Below are positions 979 to 43,056 of a DNA stretch of 43,092 nt, piece by piece (position 1 is the stretch's first letter; the number at the start of each line of letters is the position of its first letter). The notes under the pieces were generated by a model that saw only the letters and a program-made list of their open reading frames with translations, was not told the origin of the DNA and did not search any database. The DNA comes from a virus. Where the stretch lies: the IMG/VR virus record IMGVR_UViG_3300048804_000034, positions 1-43,092 of that record; one strand, 5' to 3'. Made by a program: the position numbers and the translations under genes.

Positions 979-1655
979 TCTGTAAGCAGTGTGGTGCAGA
1001 GTTCCCTTGGGTGATGGGTGCAATGTACTGCTCTCATCAGTGTAGAAGTAAGGCTGCCGATATACGGAAAGCAATCCGGGATGGTAGAAGGTACATGGGA
1101 ACCTTCGTGCCAAGTATGATCATGTGTGCGGCGTGTGGGATTGAGTTCATATCCCGTGGCGTGGGACAACGGTACTGCTCTCAAACTTGTCTTCGACGAA
1201 CAAAGCAGGCACCAAGACGTGCTCTACGACTTCAAGTTAAGCAGGCGAAGGATGCAGCGAAGGCCGCTATGTTGCAACTGCGAGTAGATGCGAGAGTGTT
1301 TAAGGTTCAGACTCAACTGCAAGTCAGGGAGAATGAAGCAGCACTTCGATTGCAGGCGGAAACAGGTAATCTAATTGTTGGACGATGTCATCCTGCTACC
1401 TTACGCGGGCATGGTGTGACGCCCGAGTGGTTTCTTCGCACACTGATCAAGCAGGGAGGCTGCGCTGCTTGTGGAAGCAAGGCTGGACCCTGGGAGATAG
1501 ACCATGATCACAAGCACTGCCCAGGTGCAACAGGATGTCCCGAGTGCATCAGGGGTATTCTGTGTGGAAGGTGCAACCACGCTGCTGGAAATGTGTTTGA
1601 TGATCCAGACAGGCTCCGAACCTTGGCTGAGTACCTGGAGCGAACGGGACGATGA
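972..1655 (+). CDS. Endonuclease VII-type nuclease 2 with N-terminal zinc fingers
   Basis: A 227-residue protein overlapping the previous gene by seven bases and the next by four. Two N-terminal zinc fingers (CKQC with CSHQC at about 4-25, and CAACG with CSQTC at about 52-73) precede a basic, coiled-coil-like linker (about 75-135). A C-terminal endonuclease VII domain follows, with CAACG, IDHDHKHCPG and GILCGRCNHA. The zinc fingers probably direct DNA binding. Codons are more AT-rich than in the flanking genes, suggesting separate acquisition. Two related nucleases in tandem between the small and large terminase genes is unusual. Confidence 0.8.
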   Translation: MVICKQCGAEFPWVMGAMYCSHQCRSKAADIRKAIRDGRRYMGTFVPSMIMCAACGIEFISRGVGQRYCSQTCLRRTKQAPRRALRLQVKQAKDAAKAAMLQLRVDARVFKVQTQLQVRENEAALRLQAETGNLIVGRCHPATLRGHGVTPEWFLRTLIKQGGCAACGSKAGPWEIDHDHKHCPGATGCPECIRGILCGRCNHAAGNVFDDPDRLRTLAEYLERTGR

Positions 1656-2407
1656 ACAGTCTGATCCATGATTGGAATCAACTGGAGGATCAGGTCGCCA
1701 CGTTCAATCGGGCCTTCCGCATGGATGCACTCGAGTGGCAGAAGGGGTACCTCCCGAACGAACGCAACGCCATCGTTCTGAAGGGACGGCAGGTCGGTGC
1801 GAGCACGGCCGCGTCCATCAAGGCAATCCATCTGGCACACTACCACCCAGGATCCTTGGCAGTCATCGTCTCCCCTTCGATGAAGCAGAGTCAGGAGATA
1901 GCCATCCGGGCGAAGGCGGGGATCAGGAACCTCGAACGTCTCCCCCTCCAGCAGGACAGCGCGACGATGATTCGCCTGGCCAACGGAAGTCGTATCATGT
2001 CGCTCCCTGGGACGGCAACGTCCGTTCGTGGTTACACAGCACAGCTACTCATCGTGGACGAGGCAGCGTACGTCGAGGAGGAGACATGGGTGGCGTCACG
2101 AGCGTTGGTCGCTACGGGAGGGCAGGTTATAGTCCAGAGCACTCCCGCAGGCGCTGCTGGATGGTTCTACGAGCTTTGGAGAAGCAACGATCCGACCTGG
2201 GACAGACACCAGATCAGGAGCGACGAGGTCCCTACAATCTCGAAGGAGTTCCTCGCACAGGAGAAGATCTCGATGGGGGAGTACGCGTACAAGGCTGAGT
2301 ACTGTGCCGAGTTCCTCGAAGCAGGTGCAGGCCTGTTCGATGCCGAAGTCCTGCAGGGGATGGTCGACGCTGGAGCGCAGGCCTACGACCTGGGAGAGAC
2401 ACCGTGA
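1652..2407 (+). CDS. terL-N: Terminase large subunit, ATPase part (split gene)
   Basis: A 251-residue protein with only the packaging-motor ATPase half of a large terminase. It has a deviant Walker A GRQVGAST at 45-52, Walker B LLIVDEA at 132-138 with D136 and E137, and a coupling motif STPAG at 163-167. Usual large terminases are about 450-600 residues and continue into an RNase H-like nuclease. Here a stop codon ends the protein and the nuclease is read from the next, overlapping gene (GTGA). The two products probably assemble into one motor. No intron or inserted nuclease gene separates the halves. Confidence 0.9.
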   Translation: MNSLIHDWNQLEDQVATFNRAFRMDALEWQKGYLPNERNAIVLKGRQVGASTAASIKAIHLAHYHPGSLAVIVSPSMKQSQEIAIRAKAGIRNLERLPLQQDSATMIRLANGSRIMSLPGTATSVRGYTAQLLIVDEAAYVEEETWVASRALVATGGQVIVQSTPAGAAGWFYELWRSNDPTWDRHQIRSDEVPTISKEFLAQEKISMGEYAYKAEYCAEFLEAGAGLFDAEVLQGMVDAGAQAYDLGETP

Positions 2408-3027
2408 GACTGCACATCGGGGTGGCTCCGGGCGGTGGGAAGGATCACCACCAGGCAGCGATTGTCTTCGTGGAGCACAGACAGGTCGCGTCTGCGCTCC
2501 CGGACGGACGCGTGACGATGGACCACATGGTGATCCACGTCGAACGCCAGGCACCGATCCTGGAAGTCCTGCGTGACCGCATCCTCGTCCTGGCCAGACG
2601 TACGCGTCCGGACAAGGCATGCTTCTTCGTGGACGCCGCAGGAGGCCTGGGCACGGGGCTGGTGAAGATCCTCACAGATATGAGACGGGACAACGTCTTC
2701 CCCCAGGACATGCACAAGCCTGAAGCCTACACGAGGCGCGGCGTTGCCCGACAGGGCCTGGTGAATGCCATCGTGGAGCAGTACGGCAGTGGGAGGTTGA
2801 AGTTCGCCACAGGGCTGCCCTTGCAGGCACAGCTCATCCGTGCTCTGGAGACCTACGAGTCCCAGGTCGCAGACGACGGTAAGGTATCGTTCTCTGGTGA
2901 CGAGGAGATGGTAATTGCCCTTGGGCTGGCCCTGGGCTACTACCGTCACGGTCAGCCAGCGCGCTACGTTCAGCGGGATGGAAAGACCATCGCTCCGTCT
3001 CGCCTGCTCTCAACAGATCCGTACTAG
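2404..3027 (+). CDS. terL-C: Terminase large subunit, nuclease part (split gene)
   Basis: A 207-residue protein with a GTG start overlapping the ATPase gene by four bases, which suggests translational coupling. It resembles the RNase H-fold headful/cos nuclease of large terminases: a first strand reading IGVAPGGGKDHH, a second acidic position FFVDAAGG with D77, and a C-terminal GDEEMVIALGLA helix with D166 and neighbours. The first catalytic aspartate, normally in a G-[IV]-D context, appears to be Ala8; D14 may or may not replace it. Cleavage activity may therefore be changed, and the neighbouring endonuclease VII-type proteins could contribute. Confidence 0.8.
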   Translation: MRLHIGVAPGGGKDHHQAAIVFVEHRQVASALPDGRVTMDHMVIHVERQAPILEVLRDRILVLARRTRPDKACFFVDAAGGLGTGLVKILTDMRRDNVFPQDMHKPEAYTRRGVARQGLVNAIVEQYGSGRLKFATGLPLQAQLIRALETYESQVADDGKVSFSGDEEMVIALGLALGYYRHGQPARYVQRDGKTIAPSRLLSTDPY

Positions 3028-4654: not shown

Positions 4655-6334
4655 ATGCCTCTCCCGAATGACCCGGCGCAGCGCTGGCCTCCGGTGGCAA
4701 ACACTCAGGAATACCTGAAGTTCCGAGAATGGTCTGCGTGGTACAGCGGGGATCCGATGCGCCTGCGCGACCAGTTCGCCCTGCAGATCCAGCCCACGTA
4801 TCGCTCGTCTCCCTGGTCCCAGTTCTGGTCCCGTATCGGATCTCGTCCTGCACAGCAGAAGGCGATGTTCCATGTCCCGATGGCAGGTGATCTTGCGAGC
4901 GTGTCGGCCTCCCTCCTGTTCGCGGTGGAGCCACGCTTCCGCGTTCGTGCTGCTCACGAGGCGCCACCCACGAAGAAGATTGTTCCTCAGGGGATGGCTG
5001 CACCAGCAGCAGACGAGATGGCCTCCGACGACATCGATGCTCTCCCCGCAGGCGATCCTGCAGCGAAGCAGACCGAGGATCGGATGAAGGAGATCGTCGA
5101 TCGTGGCGGTCTCTACAACCGGTTGATCGAGGCAGCGGAGTCTGCGTCCGCACTCGGCGGTGCGTACCTGATCCCCGTGTGGGACACGACCGTTGCGGAT
5201 GTTCCCCTGGTGTCGGTGGCACAAGCGGACTCTGCCATCCCCACGTTCAAGTTCGGTATCCTTGATACGGTGATTTTCCACCGCGAGGTTGTGAGAGACA
5301 ACAGCATCATCATCCGACATCTTGAGCTTCACGAGAAGGTCTCTGGAGGTAACTCCCACGTTCTCAACGCTCTCTATCGGGGGAGTGAGCATCAGATTGG
5401 TGTGCGTCTAGCGGACAGTGAACTGCTTGCCCTGACTGGATTGCTCCCGGAGGTCGAGCTTCCCTTCCCCGAACTGGATGCGGAGTACGTGCCGAACATG
5501 CGGCCGAACAAGCTCTGGCGCAACAGCTCGCTCGGGCAGAGTGACTATTCCGGATCTGAGCTTCTCTTCGACGCACTCGATGAGACCTACGCCTCGTGGA
5601 TACGGGACATCCGCCTGGCCAAGGCTCGCATCATCGTGCCGAAGGAGTTCGTGGATGAGTTCGGTGCCTTCGATGTAGACCATGAGGTCTTCACCCAGGC
5701 CGACCTGCATGTTGGTATGGACAGCGGAGTGATGCCAATCTTCGCGCAGCAGTTCGCCATCCGGACGAAAGAGCATCTGGAGACGGCCCTGGAGTTCGTA
5801 GAGCGCATCGCTGCGAACGCCGGTTACTCCCCGCAGACCTTCGGTCTCCACATCATCGGGCGTGCCGAGTCTGGCACGGCTCTCCGACTGAAGGAGAACC
5901 GAACGATGATGACGATGCAGCGCAAGACCCAGTGGTGGGTCCCGGCCATCGAACGGTTGTCCTCACATCTGCTTCTCATCGACGTCGACGTCTTCAAGAC
6001 GAAGATCGAGCCGATGACCGTGGACGTCGAACTCTCCGACGCGATGGTTCGTGATCCAAGCGAACTTGCAGCCACGGCGAACATTCTGAAGCAGGCGATG
6101 GCCGCGTCGACGCAGGAGAGGGTCCGGATGATCCAGCCCGACTGGACTCCGGAGGAGATCGCTGCAGAGGTGGCGAGAATCCTGGACGAGGGTACTCCAA
6201 CCACGGCGTGGTCCGTCTCTCCTGCAGCGTCCGATGCTGTCGCTCCTGTGGCTCCTGGTGCGATTCCAACACCTGGTGCTCCAGCGGAGAAGCCACCGAT
6301 GCCCACAGGCATCCCAAAGCCTCCACCTTTCTGA
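4655..6334 (+). CDS. Portal protein
   Basis: A 559-residue protein at the expected size and position between terminase and scaffold. It resembles SPP1 gp6-type portals: an N-terminal W-rich YSGDP region, a central acidic segment, long helices near residues 340-420 (EHLETALEFVERIA, then GRAESGTALRLKENR), and a proline-rich C-terminus. Portals form the dodecameric vertex through which DNA is packaged and to which the neck attaches. The ribosome site is only weakly visible (AGGTGG), which makes the upstream 15-codon frame interesting. Confidence 0.85.
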   Translation: MPLPNDPAQRWPPVANTQEYLKFREWSAWYSGDPMRLRDQFALQIQPTYRSSPWSQFWSRIGSRPAQQKAMFHVPMAGDLASVSASLLFAVEPRFRVRAAHEAPPTKKIVPQGMAAPAADEMASDDIDALPAGDPAAKQTEDRMKEIVDRGGLYNRLIEAAESASALGGAYLIPVWDTTVADVPLVSVAQADSAIPTFKFGILDTVIFHREVVRDNSIIIRHLELHEKVSGGNSHVLNALYRGSEHQIGVRLADSELLALTGLLPEVELPFPELDAEYVPNMRPNKLWRNSSLGQSDYSGSELLFDALDETYASWIRDIRLAKARIIVPKEFVDEFGAFDVDHEVFTQADLHVGMDSGVMPIFAQQFAIRTKEHLETALEFVERIAANAGYSPQTFGLHIIGRAESGTALRLKENRTMMTMQRKTQWWVPAIERLSSHLLLIDVDVFKTKIEPMTVDVELSDAMVRDPSELAATANILKQAMAASTQERVRMIQPDWTPEEIAAEVARILDEGTPTTAWSVSPAASDAVAPVAPGAIPTPGAPAEKPPMPTGIPKPPPF

Positions 6335-6359
6335 TTGCATAATCAGAATGTGGTATCCT
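6331..6359 (+). promoter_or_regulatory. Hairpin plus extended -10 promoter before scaffold gene
   Basis: A six-base inverted repeat (CTGATT, four-base loop, AATCAG) lies at 6331-6346 on the portal stop codon. An extended -10, TGG then TATCCT, lies at 6351-6359. It matches the element before the portal gene in sequence. The scaffold gene begins at 6396 with a GGAGGA site, so this transcript would have a leader. Confidence 0.4.
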
Positions 6360-6395
6360 AGCAGGACTACGTGATCAATCTCATGGAGGAAGTTC

Positions 6396-7052
6396 ATGCC
6401 CGCAACGACAACGCCTGACCCGAAGGTCACAGATGATGCTGCAGGTGCAGTCGCAGATGTGAAGACGGGGGATGCTGCAACCGGTGCAGCCGCAGTGACC
6501 GGGTCGACCCTCAACCTGACGCAGACGGAACTGGATGCAATCATCCTGAATCGAACGGCGCAGGCACGGAGGATCGCCAGTGACGCAGCCGAGAAGGCTC
6601 GTCAGTGGGATGAGTACAAAGCCAGTCAGCAGACGGAAGCCGAGAAGGCTGCTGCCAAGACTGCTGCGGAGGAGAAGCGTCTAGCCGATCTCACGGCGAA
6701 GACCAACGCTCGCGCAGTGGCTGCTGAGGTTCGACTGGTCGCGATTGAGAAGGGTGTTCGCAAGGAAGCTCTCGGGATCGTGGCCACGCTGCTGGCCAAC
6801 AGCACTGAGATTACTGTCTCGGACGACGGGAGCGTGGTGGGAGCGGAAGCCGCTGTCAACAAGCTTCTCACGGAGAACAAGTATCTCCTGACCGAGAAGG
6901 TTGCTCCAGGTCGAGCAGGGGCTGAGTTCACCGGAGAGCGTCCGGGTGCTGGTGGGAGTGACACTGAGAAGCTCGCTGCTGCTCAGAAGGCTGGACGCGC
7001 AGGTGTCCAGGACTCCATCGGCTTGAAGTTGAAGCAGTTGACTGCGCGCTGA
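6396..7052 (+). CDS. Capsid scaffolding protein
   Basis: A 218-residue protein directly before the major capsid gene. It is alanine-rich, highly charged and largely helical, with a predicted coiled coil at about residues 60-110 (repeated E/K with A) and a low-complexity acidic N-terminus and C-terminus. This composition and position are typical of phage scaffolding proteins, which guide procapsid assembly and then leave. No protease motif is seen. A strong GGAGGA site precedes the ATG. Confidence 0.75.
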   Translation: MPATTTPDPKVTDDAAGAVADVKTGDAATGAAAVTGSTLNLTQTELDAIILNRTAQARRIASDAAEKARQWDEYKASQQTEAEKAAAKTAAEEKRLADLTAKTNARAVAAEVRLVAIEKGVRKEALGIVATLLANSTEITVSDDGSVVGAEAAVNKLLTENKYLLTEKVAPGRAGAEFTGERPGAGGSDTEKLAAAQKAGRAGVQDSIGLKLKQLTAR

Positions 7053-12596: not shown

Positions 12597-13120
12597 CAGC
12601 GCTGCTAGGGTTGGCACAAGCACTAGGAGGGATGGTCATTCCTCTGCACGGTCCTGCCACTCTCGGTGGTCCGTTAAGTGTGAGCGACCTGACGTACAGC
12701 GAGACTGCCGGTGGGAACATCTTTATCGAGACTTGGCCAGAGCAGCCTGATGTGGCTGTGGTCTTGAAGTCCTTCGGAGGCAACCCTCCGGACAGCGGGC
12801 TCCCCTACGACCATCCCATCATCCAGATCCTCATTCGTGGAGATGAAGATCCGAAGACCGCGATCGATCTGTGGTACGCGATCTACTCGCGCATCCACGG
12901 TGCCGTCCAGCAGACGCTTCCAGACGGCACGGATCTGATCGCGTGCCTCGTCCAGCAGGGTGGTCCCATCAGCATTGGCACGGACCTGAACGGCAGGCAT
13001 CGCTTCTCGATGAATATACAAATGGAAGTCGTGAACCACACTATGCAAAGACCAGGAGTCGTGAATGCTGGTGTGGTATATTCGTATTGGCCGTTGCTGG
13101 CACTCAGTTCGGCACCGTAG
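12593..13120 (+). CDS. Tail terminator-like protein with shared C-terminal peptide
   Basis: A 175-residue protein starting in an ATGA overlap. Position, length and features (GLPYDHPIIQILIRG, AIDLWYAIYSRIHG) fit the tail-terminator family that caps the tail tube. The last 15 residues, VVYSYWPLLALSSAP, also occur almost unchanged inside the tail hub protein at 18850. They look like an appended element after the normal end of the fold. Confidence 0.65.
   Translation: MTALLGLAQALGGMVIPLHGPATLGGPLSVSDLTYSETAGGNIFIETWPEQPDVAVVLKSFGGNPPDSGLPYDHPIIQILIRGDEDPKTAIDLWYAIYSRIHGAVQQTLPDGTDLIACLVQQGGPISIGTDLNGRHRFSMNIQMEVVNHTMQRPGVVNAGVVYSYWPLLALSSAP
13073..13117 (+). repeat. 45-bp repeat, copy A
   Basis: 45 bases that match 18850-18894 at 41 positions. 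This copy encodes the extreme C-terminus of the tail-terminator-like protein and is followed at once by its stop codon. It contains TGG-TATATT (13074-13082), a good extended -10, so it might also serve as a promoter for the gene at 13130. Confidence 0.85.
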
Positions 13121-18102: not shown

Positions 18103-19353
18103 ATGACGGCACTCCTTCAGGTACTCATCGGTCCGGTAGACGGCTCCATCACGCAGGACATTACGAGTCACGTCCTCAATAACACTGTCAAGGTTGAGGA
18201 TGGTGCAGGTGCACTGCTCTCGACTACATCCTTCGATGTGCTTGACAAGGAGGGCACGCTCACGGGGATAGGTGTTGAGCGTGAGGTCATTGTCAATTGG
18301 GACGGAGTTTTGATCCACCGTGGGATCATCAAGACGTGCGCGAGGGTGCGTAATAGGTCGGTGTTCTGGCGGTACTACAAGTGCAAGACACAAGACCTTA
18401 CCTGCCTCATGGCTGATAACGTTGTCACTGGTGGGTGGCCAATGGGTGCCTACGGTCCACCCGATCACAATCCGCTGTCTGATTCTGCAACTATCGACAT
18501 GCTTCTCGCGACATACGGCACGCACGGTGTCCTGGGGACCGTCGCAGGTGCTGTGCAGACTCTGGTTGCACCGGGCAGTATGCCGTATATAGACTTCATG
18601 TCAATGACGCTTTACCGTGCAATGGCAGCGATTTGTCAAGTGTCGGGCGGGCACTTCTGGGTGGATGATAATAGGGTGCTTCATTACGCCATCACGGAGA
18701 CAAATCCTGCACCGTGGGGTATCTCTGATACACCAAATTATCGTGCACCTAGTGCATGGTCAGATGCCACGGCCTACGTCCCTGGGGACCTGGTGGAGAG
18801 CGACGGCGAGGTCTGGACGTGCGTCCTCGCCAACATGGCGCGCCGGCCGGTGGTATATTCGTATTGGCCAATGCTGGCACTCAGTTCGGCCCCATACTGG
18901 GAGTCATTGGGCAGTCCATCCATCGCCAATACCTTCCCATATGAAACACTTACTCTTCCCGATGACACGGTGTCTCTGGCCAACGCTATCTTCATCGGTG
19001 GGACGGGGATTTATGGCTTCGTTGAGGATAGTGGAAGCATTGCAGCGTATGGAAGGCATGAGGATGGTGTTCGCGACACGTCGGTCAAAGACATGCTTCG
19101 CTTCAATGCGGTTGGTAATGCCATGCTTGACCAGAACAAGTATCCTGTTCAGGCAGCAACGCTCACACATAGGAAGCCTGGGCTTCGTGCTGGCATGGTG
19201 GTGAATCTGACAGACCATGTGTGGGGGTTGGTTAGTACGGATCACGGGATAGACTTCCTCATCTCTAAGATCATAACCACACCCGATCCTTCCGGTATCA
19301 TTGAGCAGGAACTTCAAGTCTCCCCAGCGTGGGGACCGTGGTCAGGGAGTTAA
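18103..19353 (+). CDS. Tail hub/minor tail protein with internal CBM5/12-like insert
   Basis: A 416-residue protein just after the tape measure, where distal-tail and hub proteins lie. Residues 1-120 look like an N-terminal hub domain (VLNNTVKVEDGAGALLSTTSF). At about 219-270 the sequence switches to a carbohydrate-binding CBM5/12-like module: WSDATAYVPGDLVESDGEVW, then YWESLG. That module is GC-rich, whereas the flanks are AT-richer, and it is split by a 15-residue peptide that also ends the protein at 12593. The C-terminal part resumes the hub fold. Sugar binding on the host surface is inferred. Confidence 0.6.
   Translation: MTALLQVLIGPVDGSITQDITSHVLNNTVKVEDGAGALLSTTSFDVLDKEGTLTGIGVEREVIVNWDGVLIHRGIIKTCARVRNRSVFWRYYKCKTQDLTCLMADNVVTGGWPMGAYGPPDHNPLSDSATIDMLLATYGTHGVLGTVAGAVQTLVAPGSMPYIDFMSMTLYRAMAAICQVSGGHFWVDDNRVLHYAITETNPAPWGISDTPNYRAPSAWSDATAYVPGDLVESDGEVWTCVLANMARRPVVYSYWPMLALSSAPYWESLGSPSIANTFPYETLTLPDDTVSLANAIFIGGTGIYGFVEDSGSIAAYGRHEDGVRDTSVKDMLRFNAVGNAMLDQNKYPVQAATLTHRKPGLRAGMVVNLTDHVWGLVSTDHGIDFLISKIITTPDPSGIIEQELQVSPAWGPWSGS
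18850..18894 (+). repeat. 45-bp repeat, copy B
   Basis: Matches 13073-13117 at 41 of 45 bases, in the same reading frame. Of the four differences, one changes an amino acid (Leu to Met) and the others fall at third codon positions. It lies between the two halves of the CBM5/12-like module. It also contains the extended -10 TGG-TATATT (18851-18859). Confidence 0.85.
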
Positions 19354-36272: not shown

Positions 36273-36301
36273 AGAATGCGCCTCCCCGCGCGGCTTGTCA
36301 A
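36273..36301 (-). promoter_or_regulatory. Early leftward promoter for leaderless gene
   Basis: On the minus strand a perfect TTGACA (36301-36296), a 17-base spacer, CATTCT (36278-36273), then six bases to ATG 36266. A 20-base block around the -35 (36293-36312) is identical to 38930-38949. It closely matches the promoter at 32666-32694. Confidence 0.75.
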
Positions 36302-36331
36302 GTCCTTTCTTCCCTCTGGTGGTGCATTCGG

Positions 36332-38861: not shown

Positions 38862-39003
38862 GTGTGTTCTCCTTTTCTCGCGTGCCGTCTGGCGCGCTCG
38901 ACTGCGGTGAAGGTGCTCCCTCGCGGTGTGCTTGTCAAGTCCTTTCTTCGGCATCTGGTGCGTCCTGGCACCACCAGGCTCGATGGGAGTACTATCAGCG
39001 GTC
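38862..39003. promoter_or_regulatory. Divergent promoter region of the two replication operons
   Basis: It lies between the leftward operon and primase-helicase. Leftward: TTGACA (38938-38933), 17 bases, CACCTT (38915-38910), with the 20-base block 38930-38949 repeated at 36293-36312. Rightward: TACTAT at 38990-38995 lies eight bases before ATG 39004. CCTGG-CACCA-CCAGG (38964-38978) is an inverted repeat between them and a candidate operator. Confidence 0.55.
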
Positions 39004-40665
39004 ATGGACATCGCTCTGGCGCACGCCTCTCTCGGTCGAGAGGTCTTCCCCTTCAAGCTCGCACGTGCACGTGGCTCCGACAAATGGACTAAGACTCCGC
39101 TCGTCCGTTGGACCCAAGTTGCCACAACTGATGAGGATCAAATCCGCAAGTGGTCTGCCACGTGGCCAAGGGCTGCCTGGGGTTGGAAGCTTCCTGAAGG
39201 TGCAGTCGTAGTCGACATCGATGACGCTGAGGCCTTCGCCCGCTACTGCAGTAGCGAGCAGATCTCCCTGCCTCCCACAGCACATCAGACAACGGTCTCA
39301 GGTGGATCACATCACCTATACGAAGGTGTGGGTGTTCGCCAGACCGTTCGCGCCATCCCTGGGATTGACACAAGGGTAGGTGGGCATGGCTGGGTGGGCC
39401 TGTACTCTCCTGATGCATTTACGGGTGAGGTTGCCCTGGCCCCCGACTGGCTGCTCGACGTAGGGGAGCCGATAGCTTCCCAGGAAGCTATCGCAGACGT
39501 CATCACCACGCGCCACGAGATCACTCGGCTCATGGGTGGCTGGCGAAGGTTGGGGATGGGGGAGAAGGGTATCCTCGCTGAACTTCGGGACAGACTCGAG
39601 TCCGGTGTGATTGCCGCCTCTGATCCCTCTCGACCCTGGCTGGACTCCGACCTGGTCGTGCTGGCGAAGGAAGCGGGGAAGTGGACGCCTGCGCCAGAGG
39701 TGCCAGAGGCTCCTCTTTCAGTGGTGATTAGGGGTGTCAATCCGGAGCCTGCGGTGTTGGGCATCGACGGTGCCGATCTTCTGGCGATGGAGATTCCCCC
39801 TCTCGTGTGGGCAGTCGAGGGCCTGGTGCCTGCGGGCACGACCATCCTTGCCTCCGAACCGAAGATCGGTAAGAGTTGGCTCGCATACCAGATGTGCGTC
39901 GAGGTCGCTCTTGGAGGGAAGATTCTCGGTCGTCCCGTTTCCCAAGGTGCTGTTCTCTACTACGCCTTGGAAGACGGATCCCGCCGTGGCCAGAATCGCT
40001 TGCGAACAGCACTGGCTGGGAGACGACTTCCCCGTGGTCTCCTGGAGGTTCGGTGGGGAGCGCCGAAGATCGGCAAGGGCTTGGAGCAGCACTTGGAAAC
40101 CTGGCTGGACTCCCATGCCACTGCTCGCCTGGTCATCATCGACACGCTCCAGAAGGTTCGACCTGTCGGTTCGAAGGGTCGAGGGATGTACGAACTGGAC
40201 GTGGAGGATATGGGCAGAGTCCAGAACATCTTCCGGGATCGACCCGTAGCCCTGGTGGTCGTGCATCACACCCGTAAATTGAAGGCTGACGATTTCCTCG
40301 CCTCTGTCTCCGGTTCCTACGGTGTGACCGGTTCGGCTGATACCACGCTGATCCTCAAGCGCAAGCGGTTGGAGCAGGACGGTTCGCTGGACATCGTGTC
40401 CCGAGAAGTGATCGAGAGCGAGATCCCCGTTCACTTCGACGTCGAGGCAGGCCTGTGGACGCTGGGTGGGCTTCAGATCAGGATGTCCGGTCTCCAGGCT
40501 CAGGTTCTCGACTGGCTCACTGCCCACGGACCTGCGAAGCCACACGAGATTGCCGTGGGTGTAGGTCGACTGCTTCCTTCGGTGCAACGCGTTCTCGTCA
40601 CCCTTCTGGACGAGGGAACGGTCGAAAAGGATGCAGAGTCGCGCTACTTCACGCGTGCACTATAA
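39004..40665 (+). CDS. Primase-helicase (prim-pol plus RepA-like ATPase)
   Basis: A 553-residue protein. ATG 39004 gives the canonical start MDIALAHASLGREVFP of bifunctional primase-polymerase domains; a longer frame upstream covers the divergent control region. VVVDIDDAEAF (about 68-78) gives the acidic metal site, and TVSGGSHHLYEG the conserved histidine region. A linker leads to a RepA/AAA_25-like helicase: LASEPKIGKSWL Walker A (about 282), LVIIDTLQ Walker B (about 378) and VVVHHTRK. The end is a winged-helix-like domain. It should prime and unwind at the phage origin. Confidence 0.85.
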   Translation: MDIALAHASLGREVFPFKLARARGSDKWTKTPLVRWTQVATTDEDQIRKWSATWPRAAWGWKLPEGAVVVDIDDAEAFARYCSSEQISLPPTAHQTTVSGGSHHLYEGVGVRQTVRAIPGIDTRVGGHGWVGLYSPDAFTGEVALAPDWLLDVGEPIASQEAIADVITTRHEITRLMGGWRRLGMGEKGILAELRDRLESGVIAASDPSRPWLDSDLVVLAKEAGKWTPAPEVPEAPLSVVIRGVNPEPAVLGIDGADLLAMEIPPLVWAVEGLVPAGTTILASEPKIGKSWLAYQMCVEVALGGKILGRPVSQGAVLYYALEDGSRRGQNRLRTALAGRRLPRGLLEVRWGAPKIGKGLEQHLETWLDSHATARLVIIDTLQKVRPVGSKGRGMYELDVEDMGRVQNIFRDRPVALVVVHHTRKLKADDFLASVSGSYGVTGSADTTLILKRKRLEQDGSLDIVSREVIESEIPVHFDVEAGLWTLGGLQIRMSGLQAQVLDWLTAHGPAKPHEIAVGVGRLLPSVQRVLVTLLDEGTVEKDAESRYFTRAL

Positions 40666-40668
40666 AGC

Positions 40669-40747
40669 GAGCGATAGAGATGATAGAGTACGGCGTCAAA
40701 GGGATTTGGATAGAGTTGATGGAGTTGCTCTATCATCTCTATCGCTC
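40669..40747. repeat. Perfect 20-bp inverted repeat after primase-helicase gene
   Basis: Bases 40669-40688 and 40728-40747 are exact reverse complements, spaced by 39 bases. The heptamer GATAGAG recurs in the arms and in the spacer in both directions (at least five copies). TTCACGCGTGC occurs just before (40648-40658) and after (40765-40775). The gap 40666-40797 holds no gene. It may be a protein-binding site, an origin or a transcript-ending structure; no T run follows. Confidence 0.8.
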
Positions 40748-40785: not shown

Positions 40786-40800
40786 TAGGATACAGGCATG
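40786..40800 (+). promoter_or_regulatory. Leaderless promoter element before methyltransferase
   Basis: TAGGAT at 40786-40791 ends six bases before ATG 40798, without a ribosome site at working distance. The same geometry is found at 15507, 20617, 32666 and 36273. No clear -35 is seen. Confidence 0.45.
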
Positions 40801-41640
40801 GGCATCACACTCTACGAAGGTGACTGCAGGGTCGAGATGGCAGCAAATCTGGCTGCTAACTCCATCGATGCCATCGTCACGGATCCGCCGTATGAGGCAG
40901 GGTTCATCGGGCAGAAGCAGGATGAGGTCTCGGTCGAATCGGGCTGGGCAGATACAGGTGTGGCATTCGATCCGGCGCTCTGGAGGGAATGCCTGCGAGT
41001 GGCGAAGCCTGGAGCGTTCCTCCTGGCCTTCTCCGCAACGCGGCTTGTCCATAAGCTCGCGACTGCCATCGATCGCTCGGGCTGGGAGATCCGAGACATG
41101 CTCGTGTGGGCATACGCCTCGGGCATGAACCACGGTGCACCGGTCTCGCCCGATGGACAGAAGGCAACTCTGAAGCCTGCCTGGGAGCCCATCGTCATGG
41201 CTCGCAAACCCTTCGAGGGATCGCTCCAGGCCCTGGTGAAGCGCACGGGTGTCGGTGGGCTGCATATCGAGGAGACCCGCATACCCCGTCTCCCTTCGGA
41301 GTTGGGTGGAACGGGTGTGCTGAAGGAACCGAAGGGTAGGGAGCCTTCGAACTTCCTCCTGACCGACCCCCTATTCGGTGACTACGATAAGATCTTCATG
41401 GTACCGAAGCCTTCCCCGAAGGAGAGAGAGGGCAACACGCATCCCACGGTGAAGCCCGAGGAGTTGATGCGTCATCTCGTGCGCCTGGTTACCCCGAAGC
41501 GTGGCACGGTGCTGGATCCCTTCTGTGGCTCTGGCACGACGATGGTTGCGGCGAAAATCGAGGGATTCGAGGGAATTGCCATCGATATGCAGCCCGATTA
41601 CCTCGATATCGCGGAACGTCGGCTGAAGAAACTGTCATGA
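40798..41640 (+). CDS. DNA methyltransferase (N4/N6, DPPY type)
   Basis: A 280-residue protein. TDPPYEAG at about 28-35 is the catalytic motif, and VLDPFCGSGTTMVAA (about 238) the AdoMet motif, giving the beta-class order. HPTVKPEELMRHLVR is a family signature. No partner restriction enzyme is adjacent, so it is an orphan enzyme that should protect phage DNA or mark specific sites. It is followed by the 101-bp repeat array. Confidence 0.9.
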   Translation: MGITLYEGDCRVEMAANLAANSIDAIVTDPPYEAGFIGQKQDEVSVESGWADTGVAFDPALWRECLRVAKPGAFLLAFSATRLVHKLATAIDRSGWEIRDMLVWAYASGMNHGAPVSPDGQKATLKPAWEPIVMARKPFEGSLQALVKRTGVGGLHIEETRIPRLPSELGGTGVLKEPKGREPSNFLLTDPLFGDYDKIFMVPKPSPKEREGNTHPTVKPEELMRHLVRLVTPKRGTVLDPFCGSGTTMVAAKIEGFEGIAIDMQPDYLDIAERRLKKLS

Positions 41641-42146
41641 GCGTGCTGTGCTGCACAGAATCCGTTAACAATCTCATGCAGCACAGATCGTCGGTTGCTG
41701 CACCGCAACCTTTCAAATCGATTAGTAACGTTCTGCTGCAGCAGAAGTGTCATGGACAGAATCCGTTAACAATCTCATGCAGCACAGAACGCCCATGACA
41801 CTTCCGCAACCTTTCATTTCGATTAGTAACGTTCTGCTGCAGCAGAAGTGTCATGGACAGAATCCGTTAACAATCTCATGCAGCACAGATAGGGCCAGAC
41901 ACTTCCGCAACCTTTCATTTCGATTAGTAACGTTCTGCTGGAGCAGCAGAAAGGGGTCAAGAGATTGTTAACGGATTTGCTGCAGGACAGAAGGCTGTCA
42001 TGAGAATTCTGTGCTGCAGCTTTTCCGTTAACAATCTCTTGGCGCTGCAGCAGAGAAAGCTGCGTCGCAACCTTTCAAATCGATTAGTAACGTTCTGCTG
42101 CGCCAGCATTGTCCTGGACAGAATCCGTTAACACAAGGACAGAGCC
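41641..42146. repeat. Array of about 101-bp repeats, non-coding, origin or control candidate
   Basis: The core ATCCGTTAACAATCTC recurs with GTTAAC at 41664, 41765, 41866, 41967 (inverted), 42027 and 42127, spaced 101, 101, 101, 60 and 100 bases. A second core, CGCAACCTTTCA then ATTAGTAACGTTCTGCTG, starts at 41704, 41805, 41906 and 42066, always 39-40 bases after the first core and 61 bases before the next. A palindrome TTCTGCTGCAGCAGAA lies in the first two units. The unit length is not a multiple of three, and reading frames through it are incidental. It sits between the methyltransferase gene and a DUF4406 gene. Confidence 0.9.
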
Positions 42147-42542
42147 ATGAAAGTCTATGTCTGTGGCCCGATGACCGGGATTCCACGCTTCAACCTCCCG
42201 GCATTCGACGCCGCAGCCGTGGAGTTGCGCTCACAGAGCTACGAAGTGGTCACACCAGGCGAACTGGACGATCCTGCAGTGCGTGCGATGGAGTGGGATT
42301 CGCCTGACGGTGCTCCCCTCGAAGGCATCGGCACATGGGGCGAGTTCCTCGCTCGCGATGTTCGCCTCCTGACCGACGATGGGATCCGGGCGATCTTCGT
42401 ACTACCAGGATGGGAGTCGTCACGTGGTGCACGTCTGGAGACGTTCGTTGGGTACCTCCTGGACATGCCCATCCTGAGCCTGGAGACCAACGAGCCGGTA
42501 CCCCTGTGGCGCTTGACAGTGGCATGGAGTACAGGGCGATGA
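42147..42542 (+). CDS. DUF4406 protein (nucleoside 2-deoxyribosyltransferase-like)
   Basis: A 131-residue protein with AAGGA eight bases upstream. MKVYVCGPMTGIPRFNLPAF is the canonical start of DUF4406, a small family related to nucleoside 2-deoxyribosyltransferases; RAIFVLPGWESSRGA is the second conserved block. The family is thought to act on nucleosides or nucleotides, but the activity in phages is unproven. It is coupled by ATGA to a DUF5664 gene, making a small nucleotide-metabolism pair. Confidence 0.85.
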   Translation: MKVYVCGPMTGIPRFNLPAFDAAAVELRSQSYEVVTPGELDDPAVRAMEWDSPDGAPLEGIGTWGEFLARDVRLLTDDGIRAIFVLPGWESSRGARLETFVGYLLDMPILSLETNEPVPLWRLTVAWSTGR

Positions 42543-42991
42543 TCAACACGACTACGATAGATGAGGCACAGCACGGTGTGACGTCGTTCGTTGTACCTAC
42601 GACGAACCCGAAGGATCTGATTGGGTTGACGAAGGCACCTCTGCGCCTGGTGCCTCCTGCACTCATCATCGAGACCGCACCGGCGATGGCGAATGGGGCC
42701 TCCAAGTATGGGGCCTACAACTGGAGGGAGCACGCAGTCAGTGTGAGTGTGTACCTCGAGGCACTCATGCGACATGTCCTTGCCTACTGGGACGGCGAGG
42801 AGGTAGCGACGGACTCCGGGGTAAAGCACTTGGCACATGCCTCGGCGTGCCTGGCCATCATCTTCGACGCTGCTGCGGTAGGGAAGTTGATTGACGACCG
42901 ACCCCTGCCTGGGGGTGCGTCGTCACTGCTCGCGGTGCAGGCACGCACCACTTCAGGGGTTCGAGATTCGAATGACTTGACTTCTGCATGA
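42539..42991 (+). CDS. DUF5664 dATP/dGTP diphosphohydrolase-like protein
   Basis: A 150-residue protein. ATG 42539 overlaps the previous stop. NPKDLIGLTKAPLRLVPPA, GASKYGAYNWREH and RHVLAYWDGEEVATDSGVKHLAHA are the conserved blocks of the DUF5664 family, annotated as dATP/dGTP diphosphohydrolase in phages. It may adjust the nucleotide pool or favour modified bases. The last 25 residues are variable. Confidence 0.85.
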   Translation: MINTTTIDEAQHGVTSFVVPTTNPKDLIGLTKAPLRLVPPALIIETAPAMANGASKYGAYNWREHAVSVSVYLEALMRHVLAYWDGEEVATDSGVKHLAHASACLAIIFDAAAVGKLIDDRPLPGGASSLLAVQARTTSGVRDSNDLTSA

Positions 42992-43013
42992 AGGTATGGG
43001 TCAAAGGTCAGAA

Positions 43014-43056
43014 TGACACCGAATGTACACCGAATCGACACCGAACCGACACCCCC
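43014..43056. repeat. 11-bp tandem repeats at the right end
   Basis: About three and a half copies of an 11-base unit around GACACCGAA lie at 43014-43056, followed by a GC-rich end with a C run. The 101 bases after the last gene (42992-43092) hold no gene. They may be terminase recognition repeats at the packaging site, which lies near terS if the ends join; this is inference. Confidence 0.6.

Follow-up and report, generated by a model that had tools for sequence, protein, structure and literature searches.

An intergenic array of 506 bp at positions 41641-42146 of a tailed-phage genome, the 43,092-base virus record IMGVR_UViG_3300048804_000034 (the whole of which is the window analyzed here), probably supplies the iterons of a bipartite replication origin used by the phage's own primase-helicase. 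Judged from sequence, the probability of this reading is about 70%. The array carries about ten sites for one 11-bp motif, the primase-helicase is encoded one gene upstream, and a perfect stem-loop just 3' of that gene would be the second cis element of the origin. The original prediction took the array for a scaffold that binds protein within the replication region and named an origin, a partition site, a silencing site, or a packaging signal as possible functions. The scaffold is supported, and among these functions the comparative data single out a replication origin. Its emphasis on the adjoining methyltransferase gene is not supported. The informative neighbor is the primase-helicase, and the stem-loop lies outside the region that it covered.

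The array is the sole non-coding repeat array of the window. It has a 101-bp period, and its Tandem Repeats Finder score of 463 is by far the window's highest. The motif CGTTANNAATC is present in nine exact copies in the array and in none elsewhere in the 43 kb; base composition predicts 0.004 copies in 506 bp. A tenth copy is degenerate (TCCGTTAACAC). As in iteron origins, multiple copies of a short motif are confined to a non-coding region, and the array holds the genome's lowest-GC 300 bp (0.47 vs 0.60), an AT-rich region suited to opening. The only sizeable open reading frame (ORF) within it is a 74-amino-acid GTG ORF, and no coding frame is convincing. Six of the genome's seven GTTAAC sites fall in the array, at 41664, 41765, 41866, 41967, 42027, and 42127. 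The fourth of these belongs to an inverted unit and is still exactly 101 bp from the previous one. The palindrome TTCTGCTGCAGCAGAA is present in units 1 and 2. The extent and period of the array, the inverted unit that keeps register, the palindrome in the first two units, and the lack of a coding frame had all been predicted correctly.

The internal organization differs from that first described. What were described as two different cores, core A (CGTTAACAATC, plus strand) and core B (CGTTACTAATC, minus strand), are the same motif CGTTANNAATC on opposite strands. The iterons are oriented + - + - + - - + - (+) along the array, and their centre-to-centre distances are 57, 44, 57, 44, 57, 41, 63, 56, and 44 bp rather than the alternation of 39-40 and 61 bases reported at first. 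The proposed helical regularity is not supported: 101 bp corresponds to 9.6 turns, and phase concentration at 10.5 bp per turn is low (R = 0.10 for plus sites and 0.25 for minus sites).

The nine exact iterons sit in conserved blocks. On the plus strand, A blocks 1 to 3 occupy 41662-41679, 41763-41780, and 41864-41881, with iterons at 41663 (CGTTAACAATC), 41764, and 41865. On the minus strand, the 37-bp B blocks 1 to 3 occupy 41704-41740, 41805-41841, and 41906-41942, with iterons at 41720 (CGTTACTAATC), 41821, and 41922. An inverted A block follows at 41958-41975 (minus strand, iteron at 41963) and forms the left arm of an 18-bp perfect inverted repeat (41958-41975 / 42024-42041, loop 48). 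The last unit contains A block 5 at 42025-42042 (plus strand, iteron at 42026) and B block 5 at 42066-42102 (minus strand, iteron at 42082), and the degenerate last A site, TCCGTTAACAC at 42124-42134 on the plus strand, abuts the ribosome-binding site of the DUF4406 gene. Units 1-3 arose largely by tandem duplication (81-92% identity), so the regularity is partly a matter of ancestry. The diverged unit 5 is more informative. Its A and B blocks retain 89-97% identity to those of other units, while its linker identity is 0.40-0.44, compared to 0.42 for shuffled sequence, which indicates that the blocks and not the linkers are under constraint.

Several other explanations concern the array as a nucleic acid element in its own right. 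A packaging signal, a structured RNA, or a methylation-linked switch are together very improbable. Packaging is suggested by the position of the array, about 1 kb short of the record's right end, but two coding genes intervene, and an 11-bp repeat at 43011-43053 is the better end signal. This repeat, GAATCGACACC, stands in four tandem copies about 40 bp from the right end, and could itself be a packaging or end signal. A structured RNA would fit the strong folds that each strand gives in single-stranded form (z about -8.5 to -9). The folding is explained by sites that lie in both orientations, and the pairings of their flanks are not unit-specific. Unit-specific covarying hairpins at the A cores were rejected because a core's own flanks pair no better than flanks from other units. 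Scans against Rfam and for tRNAs, terminators, and promoters (sigma-70-type sites only) returned nothing in the array. A methylation switch is suggested by the adjoining methyltransferase gene and by the concentration of GTTAAC sites, yet relatives of the methyltransferase (L004-L007) are without any such array. An attC-like integron site, prompted by GTTAAC/TAACAA, was also discarded, and no integrase was recognised among the proteins tested. CRISPR had been dismissed from the outset, and rightly so, because the linkers are partly shared between units and the sites alternate in orientation.

The proposed initiator is encoded at 38926-40665 on the plus strand. It is composed of a Prim-Pol domain (residues 30-159; Pfam PF09250, E=8e-15), an AAA_25 helicase domain like that of RSF1010 RepA (residues 284-452; PF13481, E=8e-26), and a C-terminal winged helix at about residues 520-579, for which the Pfam TrmB match (7e-4) is below the cut-off. 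The top PDB sequence match of the helicase domain is RSF1010 RepA itself (1g8y, E=2.7e-4), and DnaB and RepA are among its top Foldseek matches, with the RepA-family entries 1nlf and 1olo at TMt 0.67-0.68. The last 60 residues are modeled by AlphaFold2 as a winged helix with pLDDT of 84-96. Folded alone, with one of five models confident, this domain gives a TM score of about 0.8 to winged-helix DNA-binding domains. A scan of genome contigs for the primase-helicase gave no match.

Four bp past the stop codon of this gene begins a stem-loop with a perfect 20-bp stem and a 39-nt loop (40669-40747; arms 40669-40688 and 40728-40747), a candidate opening or priming site. It is one of only two inverted repeats in the window with arms of at least 14 bp and a loop of at most 80, and its single-stranded DNA fold has z=-6.1. 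The loop carries TTTGGATA, one mismatch from the NrS-1 primase site TTTGGTTA; 0.005 such matches are expected, and the likeness was noticed post hoc. In 8 of 62 relatives, inverted repeats of at least 14 bp occur in the first 300 bp past the 3' end of the gene, compared to 15 in 475 kb elsewhere (P=1e-6), and four of those eight belong to arrays. In L152, a Tsukamurella plasmid, a 26-bp stem lies 8 bp after the gene.

The stem-loop could be the whole origin, as in pRN1, with the array serving as a regulatory or copy-control site (operators, handcuffing, incompatibility) for the same winged helix. Both pRN1 and phage BIP-1 have their stem-loop on the 3' side of the gene, and the repeats of BIP-1 were considered not to be its origin (PMC4234260). 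In the relatives L152, L154, and L156, a stem-loop is present and no array was detected. The array also lies farther from the gene than the stem-loop does. We consider this explanation unlikely.

Comparative evidence for an origin in the array comes from relatives of the helicase. No relative has an array of the same motif, so the broader question was whether arrays occur beside genes of this kind. Helicase relatives were found at 71 non-redundant loci, window included, of which 65 were usable for the array count. The zone from -60 to +400 bp relative to the helicase stop was compared with control windows from the same loci; the test rests on crude ORF calls and on thresholds of our choosing. 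Dense repeat arrays were found near the helicase stop in 13 of 65 loci and in 7 of 721 control windows (Fisher P=1.3e-10). A second, simpler detector, which calls one 8-mer present at least four times within 400 bp, gave 11/32 against 7/468 (P=3e-10) for primase-fused proteins, a class proxied by a protein length of at least 500 amino acids (Pfam found Prim-Pol in five of ten long proteins scanned). For stand-alone helicases, the association is weak (2/28 vs 3/398, P=0.04).

The motifs vary by locus. About ten were found: GGTAACTAT, GTAAGGTTG, GGTCACAC, GGCGGAAC, CGGAACA, CATGTCCG, CACCACACAG, GTGGAAAC, GCGCTCAACCC, and GGTGACNG. They occur in both orientations and are nearly restricted to the zone around and just past the helicase stop (14/14 in L208, 10/10 in L131, and 6/6 in L230). 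The closest parallel in architecture is the locus L193, whose protein joins Prim-Pol and AAA_25 to a MarR-like winged helix and where GGTAACTAT sites begin 20 bp past the stop. L131, annotated as Streptococcus phage phi-SsuZKB4_rum, carries about 0.55 kb of GGTGAC repeats (5916-6471), in direct orientation in the left part and mostly inverted in the right part. This array follows immediately on the 3' side of a gene for a RepA-like helicase, slightly upstream of parB, and is likely the origin of L131.

A broader rule can be proposed. Prim-Pol/RepA-type primase-helicases of phages and plasmids would carry their own origin just 3' of the gene as inverted iterons that evolve fast together with the C-terminal domain, and a primase stem-loop may or may not accompany them. 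In the present phage, both elements would be present, and the methyltransferase gene would be cargo inserted between the two halves of the origin. We give even odds that this is a widespread and undescribed rule. In the open-access literature, no account was found that describes bidirectional iteron arrays on the 3' side as a general trait of Prim-Pol/RepA-helicase phages.

A number of observations weigh against an origin in the array. It lies 984 bp 3' of the primase-helicase stop with the methyltransferase gene between, unlike the arrays of relatives, which are mostly within 100 bp of the gene. Two thirds of primase-fused relatives have no array by these detectors, and the relatives share ancestry, with nine array-bearing loci in one cluster at 40% identity. 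GC skew, which the original prediction suggested as a check for replication start, does not switch at the array. Another of its suggestions, a search for the cores in other phages, was no more fruitful: across 2.9 million viral contigs, TCCGTTAACAATCTC and the pattern of paired sites produced only scattered hits, apparently due to chance. In no other contig did the exact motif array turn up, and 24 related records lack it. The one true genome-level relative found, IMGVR_UViG_3300029957_000012 (L140-L142; PolA 37%, Sak4 51%, TerL 48%, and DUF4406 56%), has no recognised primase-helicase relative and no non-coding array. An apparent syntenic array in L141, as well as arrays in L133 and L134, were rejected as protein-coding repeats.

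The array might instead be an operator or silencer, at which a repressor or activator controls the downstream genes for DUF4406 and a dATP/dGTP diphosphohydrolase. It runs right up to the ribosome-binding site of DUF4406, regulators commonly have winged-helix folds, and the promoter scan covered only sigma-70-type sites. Its sites, however, are limited to one 0.5-kb gap and occur in no other intergenic region, unlike dispersed operators or stoperators, and no repressor or integrase gene was recognised among the proteins tested. Such a role is improbable.

Plasmid centromeres typically contain short paired sites in regular arrays, which counts in favor of a partition site in a phage-plasmid. 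The winged helix modeled in isolation likewise resembles AspA and a second centromere binder of pNOB8. Against this, Pfam and PHROGs scans of the proteins tested found no ParA, ParM, or TubZ NTPase and no integrase, although many small early proteins are unnamed. The gene set, with its own polymerase, RNA ligase, and methyltransferases, looks lytic, and the chance that the array serves partition is slim.

If the array is the iteron part of an origin, initiation could proceed as follows. The C-terminal winged helix of the primase-helicase would dock on about ten CGTTANNAATC sites that face both ways. Several copies of the protein would assemble there, probably as two helicase rings pointed in opposite directions. 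The helicases would open the AT-rich array, extrude the stem-loop at 40669-40747, or both, and the two elements would act jointly. The Prim-Pol domain would then lay the first primers for the family-A DNA polymerase, so that replication would start at this locus. No DnaA boxes (TTWTNCACA, TTGTCCACA, or TTATCCACA) are present in the window, and such an origin would thus not be DnaA-dependent. Very few phages have a known origin, and in uncultivated phages one is hardly ever annotated. If the proposal is true, origins would become predictable from sequence alone across many phages and plasmids with Prim-Pol/RepA helicases, since the motif is located 3' of the gene and its proposed reader is fused to primase and helicase. 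It would also define a compact single-protein initiation system, with about ten natural protein-motif pairs for the study of binding specificity.

The surrounding genome is that of a phage with a structural module akin to those of actinobacterial phages; its capsid protein is 56% identical to that of Propionibacterium phage G4. The leftward early module encodes the family-A DNA polymerase, a Sak4-like annealing protein, an exonuclease, and an RNA ligase, and an SSB-like gene is also present. A rightward group at the right end is composed of the primase-helicase gene, the methyltransferase gene, the array, the DUF4406 gene (42147-42542), and the dATP/dGTP diphosphohydrolase-like gene. The methyltransferase gene (N6_N4_Mtase, PF01555, E=6e-32) lies at 40798-41640 on the plus strand, between the stem-loop and the array, and is probably outside the origin mechanism. 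The array fills the entire gap from it to the DUF4406 gene.

Other features of the window were noted. An element of the GACTTGAC type recurs on both strands, at 134-150 and 42974-42990 and, on the minus strand, at 36293-36312, 38930-38949, and 32698. Within the set, the 20-bp copies at 36293 and 38930 are identical (GCTTGTCAAGTCCTTTCTTC), and the element could be a shared promoter with a -35-like TTGAC. Two different structural genes share a 41-bp near-exact repeat (13073-13113 and 18850-18890), and both copies encode VVYSYWPxLALSSAP. The large terminase (1652-3027) consists of two overlapping ORFs, 1652-2407 and 2404-3027, possibly a split gene or a frameshift, and both match the terminase region of the relative L140.

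The locus can be compared to several known origins. The Prim-Pol-helicase of phage NrS-1 starts at the 8-nt motif TTTGGTTA (PMC8718748). NrS-1 has two copies of it mid-genome, and no iteron array is mentioned for that phage, unlike the arrangement here. In pRN1, a Sulfolobus plasmid, a prim-pol-helicase with a C-terminal winged helix depends on a stem-loop 3' of its gene, a requirement also proposed for phage BIP-1 (PMC4234260). The present phage shares with both a Prim-Pol, helicase, and winged-helix protein and a large stem-loop just 3' of its gene; the pRN1 structure has a 21-nt stem and a 58-nt loop, compared to the 20-bp stem and 39-nt loop found here. Because the pRN1 helicase belongs to superfamily 3 (SF3) and the one described here is RepA/DnaB-like, the proposed origin is not strictly of the pRN1 type; pRN1 also lacks iterons.

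Iterons are found in the other systems. The Rep protein of Staphylococcus aureus pathogenicity islands (SaPI) and Cch2 of the staphylococcal cassette chromosome mec (SCCmec) use iteron origins that follow immediately after the helicase gene and are bound by the C-terminal domain (PMC7581432). The array described here likewise lies 3' of the proposed initiator-helicase gene, and the C-terminal binding that is known there is proposed here. In SCCmec, primase activity has been mapped to the iterons. Those initiators are 3'-to-5' helicases, whereas the present one is RepA/DnaB-like, and SCCmec has three 5-nt iterons in place of about ten 11-bp sites. Here, moreover, a single protein combines primase and helicase, and another gene lies between its gene and the array.

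In RSF1010, iterons and hairpins serve an initiator, the RepA helicase, and a primase (PMC4234260). Its oriV, with RepC iterons, RepA helicase, and RepB' at the ssiA/ssiB hairpins, resembles the present locus in combining iterons and hairpins with a RepA-family hexameric helicase, but uses three separate proteins for functions that are fused here. No separate RepC initiator was recognised among the window proteins tested, so the proposed origin is not strictly of the RSF1010 type. The origin of P4 is bipartite (ori1 and crr). The P4 alpha protein, which acts at short repeats (PMC4234260), likewise unites primase, helicase, and winged helix, although its primase is of the Toprim type and the sequences are unrelated. 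Overall, the locus seems to work like an iteron origin, as in SaPI, SCCmec, P4, and RSF1010. Because it holds parts of both designs, namely iterons, a 3' stem-loop, and a Prim-Pol-RepA-winged-helix protein, it is read as a probable bipartite origin split by the methyltransferase gene.
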